Below are positions 26,914 to 28,308 of a stretch of 34,110 bases of DNA, piece by piece. Positions within the stretch are counted from its first letter, which is position 1. Every line of letters begins with the position of its first letter. Position numbers and translations under genes: made by a program. The stretch is from Metallosphaera yellowstonensis MK1 (GTDB lineage Archaea; Thermoproteota; Thermoprotei_A; Sulfolobales; Sulfolobaceae), in the NCBI RefSeq assembly GCF_000243315.1, contig NZ_JH597761.1:934844-968953 (forward strand), given 5' to 3'. Below the pieces are notes generated by a model. That model worked only from the letters and a program-made list of their open reading frames with translations, did not search any database and was not told where the DNA came from.

Positions 26914-26944
26914 CTCCCGGCTTCCCCAATCTAATTGATCAGGG

Positions 26945-28049
26945 ATGAGTCTTTGACAGGTATCAGATAAGTAGACAGGAGCTCAAGGTCCTACTTAGGG
27001 AGTTGAAGAAATGGAGTGCTCCAGCCACCGTACTACTATCCCTTTACATACCCCCGGGCAGGCCTGTTTCAGATGTGGTGAACATGCTTAGGCAAGAGGC
27101 ATCCATAGCACAGAACATAAAGTTGAAGAGGACCAGGGACGCTGTGGAGTCAGCTATCACGTCTGCAATAGACAGGCTGGTGACCATAAACAAGGTACCA
27201 GAGACAGGTCTCGTGATGTTTTGCGGGCAAAACTTCGATACCAATGAATTCAAGTGTTACATGTTCTCCCCTCCAGAGAAGGTCACAGTGTACTTCTACA
27301 GGACAGACAAACAGTTTCACACGGAGTTCCTGGAGGACATGGTGGAGACGAGCGACGTTTACGGTCTCTTGATCGTGGAGAGAGACCAAGGCACCATAGG
27401 ATTACTTAGGGGTTCCAGGATAGAGGTACTAGACGAGGAGGAGGGCTACGTACCTGGGAAACACATGATGGGAGGACAATCACAAAGAAGGATTGACAGA
27501 ATAATAGAGGAGTTATATCATGATTTCCTGAAGAGTTTCGGAGAGAAGGTGAACAGTTACTTTCTCCCTTACTTGGAAAGCGGGAAGCTCAAGGGTATAC
27601 TGTTGGGGGGACCAGGGTACGCAAAGAAGGATTTCTACGACTCGGACTACTTGGACTACAGACTGAAGAAGCTCATCCTCCTTCCTCTGGTGGACATAGG
27701 CTATCAGGGAGAGGCAGGATTGAGGGAGATGGTAATGAAATCAAAGGATTTGCTCAAGAATCAGAAATACGTTGAGATAGAGGATCTCATCGAGGAGCTG
27801 AAGTATCACATGGCAAAGGATGACGGGTTAGTAGTGTATGGAATTGAGGAGGTCAACAAGGCCTTAAGCATGGGCGCTGTAGATAAAATGATAGTCTACG
27901 ACGAGGGTAGGCCAGAATTAGAGAAGATAGCCCAGGAAGCGGAGAAGTATGGAACTAAGGTATACATAGTTGGCGAGGAGGTACCAGAGGCTGAATGGGT
28001 TAGGAAGACCTTCGGTGGTCTAGTGGGGAAACTCAGGTACAGGGTCTAA
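26945..28049 (+). CDS. prf1: Peptide chain release factor aRF1 (apparent +1 frameshift at codon 3)
   Basis: Archaeal/eukaryotic-type class I release factor that reads all three stop codons and releases the peptide. The body shows [48 protein letters not shown], the stop-reading region with [24 protein letters not shown], and [14 protein letters not shown] (family GGPGPTK/GGQ-like region), then the aRF1 C-terminal domain. The homologous frame runs upstream of TTG 27003 ([20 protein letters not shown]) to a TGA at 26946 without any start. ATG AGT CTT TGA C at 26945 enters it only by a +1 shift on CTT, giving 367 residues, a normal length. If unshifted, the gene must start at TTG 27003 with a clipped N-terminus. 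Confidence 0.9.
26951..26957 (+). promoter_or_regulatory. Candidate +1 programmed frameshift site CTTTGAC
   Basis: CTT TGA C lies at codons 3-4 after ATG 26945. Slipping from CTT to TTT and reading GAC joins the aRF1 frame as Leu-Asp. This heptamer and dipeptide are those of the bacterial prfB (RF2) frameshift site. An AGGG six bases before the CTT could act like the stimulatory SD, but the match is weak. Confidence 0.5.
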
Positions 28050-28080: not shown

Positions 28081-28242
28081 GTGGGCACTCTTAAGGATTT
28101 TTACGTCGAGGTTCCACAGTTTAAGTTGCACCGAACGTCCATCTACGTAATAAACGGCGAAGTCTTCGCCCTTAACTTCACTTTTAGGTCAAAAATTCTC
28201 AAGGTTCAGGAACTGGAGAGAAGTGCGGGGGGCGGGATTTGA
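28081..28242 (+). CDS. Possible small protein, 53 aa
   Basis: A frame from GTG 28081 reads MGTLKDFYVEVPQFKLHRTSIYVINGEVFALNFTFRSKILKVQELERS…, with an alternating hydrophobic pattern that looks like true beta structure. The open frame starts upstream at 28024, but GTG 28081 is the first start codon. I cannot name a family. The gene lies 31 bp after aRF1 and runs 19 bp into the opposite-strand tRNA-Leu gene. The end residues (SAGGGI) are therefore forced by the tRNA and suggest a truncated or decaying frame. Confidence 0.35.
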   Translation: MGTLKDFYVEVPQFKLHRTSIYVINGEVFALNFTFRSKILKVQELERSAGGGI

Positions 28243-28308
28243 ACCCGCGCAGGACTACTCCAGTGGAGCCTCAGTCCACCCCCTTTGGCCTAGCTCGGGC
28301 ACCCCCGC
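28224..28308 (-). tRNA. tRNA-Leu (anticodon GAG)
   Basis: 85-nt class II tRNA. The acceptor stem is GCGGGGG/CCCCCGC with discriminator A, and T8 is present. The anticodon arm is GTGGA-CTGAGGC-TCCAC with anticodon GAG. A long variable arm (TGGAGTAGTCCTGC region) and T arm GCGGG-TTCAAAT-CCCGC complete it. CCA is not encoded, and no intron is seen. Confidence 0.95.

Follow-up and report, generated by a model that had tools for sequence, protein, structure and literature searches.

The ornithine decarboxylase antizyme gene of eukaryotes is controlled by a feedback +1 frameshift at a codon followed by UGA, which responds to the polyamine level. In Escherichia coli, the shift site of prfB, the gene encoding release factor RF2, is located at codon 26. 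The archaeal release factor aRF1 is unrelated in sequence to RF2 and reads all three stop codons. Bacterial prfB sites have the form CUU_UGA_C, with a Shine-Dalgarno (SD)-like AGGGGG element placed 3 nt upstream of the slip codon, and their stop is never TAG (PMC12421855); in the E. coli gene, the P-site tRNA-Leu re-pairs with UUU through a first-position G-U pair (PMC5009743). The eRF1-like genes R726 of Mimivirus and mg280 of Megavirus combine a CUU_UAG_C or CUU_UAA_C shift site with readthrough, in an autoregulatory arrangement otherwise described from bacteria only (PMC3521657), and the review of Atkins likewise places autoregulatory release-factor shifting in bacteria. The sole programmed archaeal frameshift listed in a 2021 review is the -1 event of the S. 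solfataricus fucosidase gene, aRF1 being unmentioned (PMC8211752). Autoregulatory frameshifting of release factors has been described as bacterial with one giant-virus exception, and cellular aRF1 and eRF1 are not known to use it.

The DNA analysed here (the window) is a stretch of 34,110 nucleotides from the 2.8 Mb genome of Metallosphaera yellowstonensis, a member of the Sulfolobaceae. It contains an aRF1 gene, identified by a match to the TIGR03676 equivalog profile (443.6 bits; cut-off 234.7) and by the three Pfam eRF1 domains (PF03463, PF03464 and PF03465; eRF1_1/2/3), all of which exceed their cut-offs. The 5' end of this gene reads ATG (26945-26947), AGT (26948-26950), CTT (26951-26953), TGA (26954-26956) and C (26957), and the body of the gene lies one base ahead of the ATG frame, reading TGA (26946), GTC (26949), TTT (26952) and GAC (26955), then AGG TAT CAG. 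Because the TGA at 26946 closes the aRF1 frame, an in-frame start further upstream is excluded; between this TGA and the TTG at 27003, the frame contains no ATG, GTG or TTG. A +1 slip on CTT yields M-S-L-D-R-Y-Q... and a product of 367 residues, and beyond the stop of the shift site no internal stop occurs in the +1 frame. An initial annotation of this DNA had read the site in this way, and on re-reading the sequence we found its coordinates and letters correct throughout, including the frame relationship, the closing TGA, the lack of an earlier start and the predicted 367-residue product. The pattern GGGATGNNNNTTTGA occurs only once in the whole genome, at the aRF1 site. An A/T-rich box is present about 30-35 nt upstream of the ATG in most Sulfolobaceae; from its position in the window, transcription would be expected to start some 8-10 nt upstream of the ATG, close to the conserved GATCAGGG. 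The features of the locus are listed in Table 1.

Table 1. Position of the features of the aRF1 locus within the M. yellowstonensis window.
Feature	Position	Strand	Basis
TATA-like box TTTTTTAA	26906..26913	+	Sequence; similar A/T-rich box in most Sulfolobaceae
Leader GATCAGGG (GATYAGGG in most Sulfolobaceae), abutting the ATG; candidate SD-like stimulator	26937..26944	+	Alignment of relatives
Zero-frame mini-ORF ATG AGT CTT TGA (Met-Ser-Leu-stop)	26945..26956	+	Sequence and relatives
TGA closing the aRF1 frame upstream, overlapping the ATG	26946..26948	+	Sequence, relatives
Shift site CTT_TGA_C	26951..26957	+	NTT-T-stop kept in 91 aRF1 loci of 7 families
aRF1 body (archaeal peptide chain release factor 1), +1 frame, 364 codons plus stop	26955..28049	+	Frame, homology, profiles
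TTG, first start-like codon of the aRF1 frame; rejected as true start	27003..27005	+	Frame, conservation
tRNA-Leu(GAG), expected decoder of the slip codon CUU; conserved aRF1 neighbour in Sulfolobaceae	28223..28308	-	Neighbourhood comparison

The comparison covered 214 genomes in an order-wide search, and the 5' ends of 150 aRF1 loci were read, family f2 being left out of this reading. All 31 Sulfolobaceae genomes (family f1) contain an aRF1 gene whose frame is closed by a stop at, or adjoining, the equivalent position, and a protein-guided alignment revealed the block ATG AGT CTT T(GA/AG) in every one of them, with the longer block GATYAGGGATGAGTCTTTGA in most. The stop of the shift site is TGA in 29 of these genomes and TAG in the two others (CTT TAG T in G005; CTT TAG C in G001), so that what is conserved is the presence of a stop and not its letters. 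The recoded anatomy was present in 31/31 sampled members of f1, 27/27 of f4, 5/5 of f7, 22/28 of f8, 4/4 of f10 and 1/3 of f11. It was also present in the one f13 genome, from a different order of the class (a search of that order, which holds one genome, gave no others). This amounts to 91 aRF1 loci from 7 families with NTT-T-stop, to which two f8 genomes with TAT TAG may be added. The arrangement shared by these 91 loci consists of (i) a start codon, mostly ATG with GTG and TTG variants, which is kept as a start in the zero frame and lies 3-4 codons before NTT-T-stop, (ii) one or two further codons, (iii) a slip codon, which is CTT in 39 loci, ATT in 31, TTT in 19 and GTT in 2, (iv) a stop immediately after the slip codon, followed by C (68 loci) or T (20 loci), and (v) an aRF1 body in the +1 frame. 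In families f3, f9, f5 and f6 the shift site is absent and aRF1 has an ordinary, in-frame start; the site is also absent from those genomes of other classes whose aRF1 5' ends were checked. A scan of 211 genomes of the order with the consensus GGGATGRGTNTTTRRY returned 55 matches in 54 genomes, 54 of the 55 being located at aRF1 starts, as compared with 5 scattered matches for the reversed pattern used as a control. On a poorly resolved tree built from 125 N-domain columns, the recoded state requires 8 changes, which is compatible with one ancestral gain followed by several losses and likewise with several gains.

The CTTTGAC of the window is identical to the prfB site letter for letter; both are +1 shift sites close to the 5' end of a gene for a class-I release factor, with an A-site stop that the encoded factor reads, C follows the stop in most aRF1 loci, and a purine-rich element lies upstream. 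The differences are several: the aRF1 site is found at sense codon 3-4 and not at about codon 26, its slip codon may also be ATT, TTT or GTT, and its purine core, which includes AGGG in the window, is placed 6 nt before the slip codon (3 nt in prfB), where it touches or overlaps the start codon. Moreover, the stop is TAG in 61/91 aRF1 loci, TGA in 29/91 and TAA in one, whereas bacterial sites never use TAG (PMC12421855). Since the gene encodes aRF1 and not bacterial RF2, the site falls outside the prfB family, even if it works, as we read it, like prfB autoregulation, and the aRF1 frameshift is most likely independent of that of RF2. The CTTTGAC-type shift proposed in the initial annotation is supported, but its scope had been drawn too narrowly: the system extends to much of the order, its slip codon can be ATT, TTT or GTT besides CTT, and its stop is mostly UAG. 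The viral genes R726 and mg280 share with these loci an eRF1/aRF1-type product and a +1 shift, and their CUU UAG C is identical to the site of several f4 members and of G001; they differ in being viral and eukaryote-hosted, in having their site further inside the coding region, and in their additional UGA readthrough, for which no counterpart was seen in the aRF1 genes, where the frameshift stop stands alone and no further stop interrupts the coding sequence. The alpha-fucosidase gene of Saccharolobus solfataricus also undergoes programmed frameshifting, in the same archaeal family, but its shift is -1, affects another gene, is strain-restricted and forms no feedback loop. The antizyme shift resembles the aRF1 site as a feedback +1 event at a codon followed by UGA; it differs in sensing polyamines and in its gene and shift codon.

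Our preferred reading, to which we assign a probability of about 0.83, is that aRF1 is expressed through an autoregulatory programmed +1 frameshift, by which the gene responds to the level of its own product. Ribosomes would initiate at the ATG of the mini-ORF, translate AUG AGU CUU and encounter UGA as the A-site codon, the stop being reached at codon 4 (codon 5 in most f8 members). When aRF1 is plentiful, termination would follow and Met-Ser-Leu would be released; when it is scarce, the ribosome would pause and the peptidyl-tRNA-Leu(GAG) on CUU, which could re-pair with UUU by a first-position G-U, would slip by one base, so that GAC (Asp) would become the next codon and the full-length factor would be made. 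The GGG/GGTG element located 6 nt before the slip codon may assist by pairing with 16S rRNA. Comparison of the sequences shows the mini-ORF, the closed upstream frame, the conserved slip codon and stop, selection for coding in the +1 frame immediately beyond the site and the lack of a shared alternative start; the slippage and its dependence on the aRF1 level are what we infer. In 91/91 loci a stop occupies the A site of the shift, all three kinds being represented; that its presence is kept while its identity changes is as expected if the site senses a factor able to read every stop. The self-control suggested in the initial annotation gained in this respect, the switch between TGA and TAG being what is predicted for an all-stop reader, and autoregulation is still something that we infer. 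Among the points against the proposed mechanism, codon 3 is far earlier than the position of the bacterial site, the predicted SD pairing is weak in the Sulfolobaceae, re-pairing on UUU would entail a first-position mismatch where the slip codon is ATT (31 loci) or GTT (2 loci), and re-pairing is poor in the two genomes with TAT TAG.

The alternative that survives best accepts the programmed +1 shift but supposes that it runs at a fixed rate, providing a low and constant output of aRF1 that does not respond to the factor. Slippage after a pause at a slow codon in the A site would suffice for such a set-ratio shift, a strong shifty stop could be constitutive, and sequence is the only type of data used here. 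We nevertheless regard it as improbable, given that a conserved A-site stop switching between UGA, UAG and UAA in a release factor gene is the simplest design for a sensor, and that bacterial prfB and Mimivirus R726, which share this design, were described as autoregulatory (PMC12421855, PMC3521657). A more elaborate form of the autoregulatory reading is tentative and, in our estimate, falls somewhat short of even odds: the shift would occur within the initiation region, where the purine element touching the start, 6 nt ahead of codon 3 or 4, would hold the newly started ribosome, so that initiation and shifting would be combined in a compact 20-nt module; this would be an independently evolved archaeal loop, in which an omnipotent factor is sensed through any stop, ancestral to most Sulfolobales families and lost several times.

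The +1 frameshift itself is strongly supported by the comparative evidence, which indicates that the +1 frame is coding from the site onwards. At the site, TTT is the aRF1-frame triplet of all 91 loci, while phenylalanine codons further downstream in the same genes are TTC more often than TTT (536 : 285); if the site merely encoded Phe, TTC would be expected to be common. The nominal probability of this bias (~1e-47) is not a real one, as the loci share descent, but 69 distinct 25-mers are present around the site. Within codons 3-18 of the Sulfolobaceae genes, 49% of the codon differences are synonymous in the aRF1 frame, as against 13% and 10% in the two other frames. Tyr5, Glu11, Leu12, Lys13 and Leu15 are nearly invariant, and the alignment to A. 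pernix aRF1 (chain 3agk) extends from residue 3 onwards. From the previous stop to the slip site, no ATG, GTG or TTG was found in the aRF1 frame of 77/91 loci, and in the other 14 such codons occupy scattered positions; within the Sulfolobaceae, the first downstream in-frame start is likewise scattered, 9 to 43 codons on depending on the species. On these grounds, native aRF1 very probably results from a +1 shift.

A start of the aRF1 frame at a non-standard codon near the site (GTC, GTA, TTT or ATT), with the ATG and stop serving as a decoy or regulatory mini-ORF, would do without any shift. GTC directly precedes TTT GAC in the Sulfolobaceae, GTN precedes TTT in f10, f11 and parts of f4, f7 and f8, the f11 genome G211 has at this point GTG, a real start, and the SD-like core 6 nt before the slip codon has an initiation-like spacing. 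The codon before TTT is, however, often GCA, GGA, ATA, GCT, GCC, CTG or CTA, so that no start-like codon is common to all loci, the ATG/GTG/TTG of the zero frame being the shared one, and a decoy mini-ORF leaves unexplained why the aRF1 frame always has TTT and never TTC; we hold this alternative to be very unlikely. Still less credible is that the Met-Ser-Leu mini-ORF acts as an upstream ORF, with aRF1 produced by reinitiation at the TTG at 27003 or at another internal start. This TTG, a start at which the initial annotation had considered damaging to its own proposal, is the first standard start in the aRF1 frame, but residues 3-18 in front of it are conserved (Y, E, L, K and L nearly invariant) and align with the amino end of A. 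pernix 3agk, about half of their codon differences are synonymous (10-13% in the other frames), and the position of the first internal start varies by species. A sequencing error or a pseudogene can be dismissed with similar confidence: one extra T, the weak point conceded in the initial annotation, would give an identical picture in a single genome, but the worry is gone since CTT-T-stop is shared by all 31 Sulfolobaceae (many of them single-contig genomes) and the architecture recurs in other families, the requested alignment of the 5' ends having found an unshifted ATG frame in none of the 31, and no genome carries a second intact aRF1, the other match in each being a weak pelota-like paralogue. 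Slippage of the RNA polymerase was also considered and seems unlikely, the T run being just 3-5 long, and 3 in most loci.

A spacing of 6 nt separates the purine core (GGG, GAGGG or GGTG) from the slip codon downstream of it in 30/31 Sulfolobaceae and in most of the other families. Its pairing was predicted for the 12 nt before the slip codon against an assumed 16S tail, GGCUGGAUCACCUCA. With this assumed tail, the Sulfolobaceae sequences reached -6.2 kcal/mol, hardly better than the -5.7 kcal/mol of their shuffles, whereas the predicted pairing was clear in f8, f10 and f7 and modest in f4. Members of f4 and f7 (e.g. L137, L103 and L143) have a second GGTG about 8 nt before the ATG, besides the GAGGG or AAGGG touching it; as this second GGTG sits at normal SD distance from the ATG, it suggests that separate elements may serve in these families, one for starting and one for shifting.

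In the window, the gene for tRNA-Leu(GAG) lies 0.2 kb from aRF1. Among the Sulfolobaceae, the two genes are no more than about 1.5 kb apart in 13 loci and up to 8 kb apart in another 8; the tRNA gene is often the immediate upstream neighbour, in divergent orientation. Near the aRF1 genes of the other families that were checked, it was not found, so that the linkage is probably plain synteny and not a part of the mechanism.

A search of the open-access literature, which leaves out most subscription journals and preprints, returned no earlier report of a shift site in aRF1. The accessible parts of the GeneTack survey (1106 genomes) report prfB and contain no archaeal aRF1 case that we could find; a method of this kind would hardly be expected to see a first frame of 3 codons. 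Similarly, the shift site is not mentioned in the accessible portion of a cryo-EM study for which aRF1 of S. acidocaldarius was cloned for expression in E. coli. If the preferred reading is true, the aRF1 site would represent, within the literature covered, the first case of +1 programmed frameshifting among archaeal cellular genes and also among cellular factors reading all stops, and a striking convergence, across an archaeal order, of a non-homologous protein on the same shift site. For well-studied Sulfolobus species, the annotated N-terminus of aRF1 is probably wrong, and the site offers a small system in which archaeal recoding can be tested genetically.

Several individual loci depart from the common arrangement. 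The two f8 genomes with TAT TAG, G174 and G175 (L077 and L076), read GGTG ATG AAG TAT TAG C, with the same geometry and the same need for a +1 shift but another slip codon; TAT would re-pair poorly on ATT, and either the shift proceeds without re-pairing or another route is used. Within the f8 genus g65, G181, G185 and G183 (L101, L113 and L114) have apparently gained an in-frame GTG while ATTTAG was kept, and some of the Phe-Ser codon conservation could for this reason be inertia; a further member, G182 (L106), lacks a standard start in the aRF1 frame and in the zero frame alike. The aRF1 gene of G198 (L054/L120; family f9) has no in-frame start, its close relative G199 having an ATG; a zero-frame GTG leads, about 11 codons on, to GGT TGA C. 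This may be a shift site of independent origin, or the runs of G may contain a sequence error. The sole match to GGGATGRGTNTTTRRY outside aRF1 in the 211 genomes is GGGATGAGTTTTTAAT, at G016:C1:691028-691043 on the minus strand. Finally, L037 (Desulfurococcaceae archaeon AG1) reads GGGG ATT TCT ATT TAG C, with the spacing intact and ATT at the position of the ATG, and a TTG is present in the same frame two codons further upstream.
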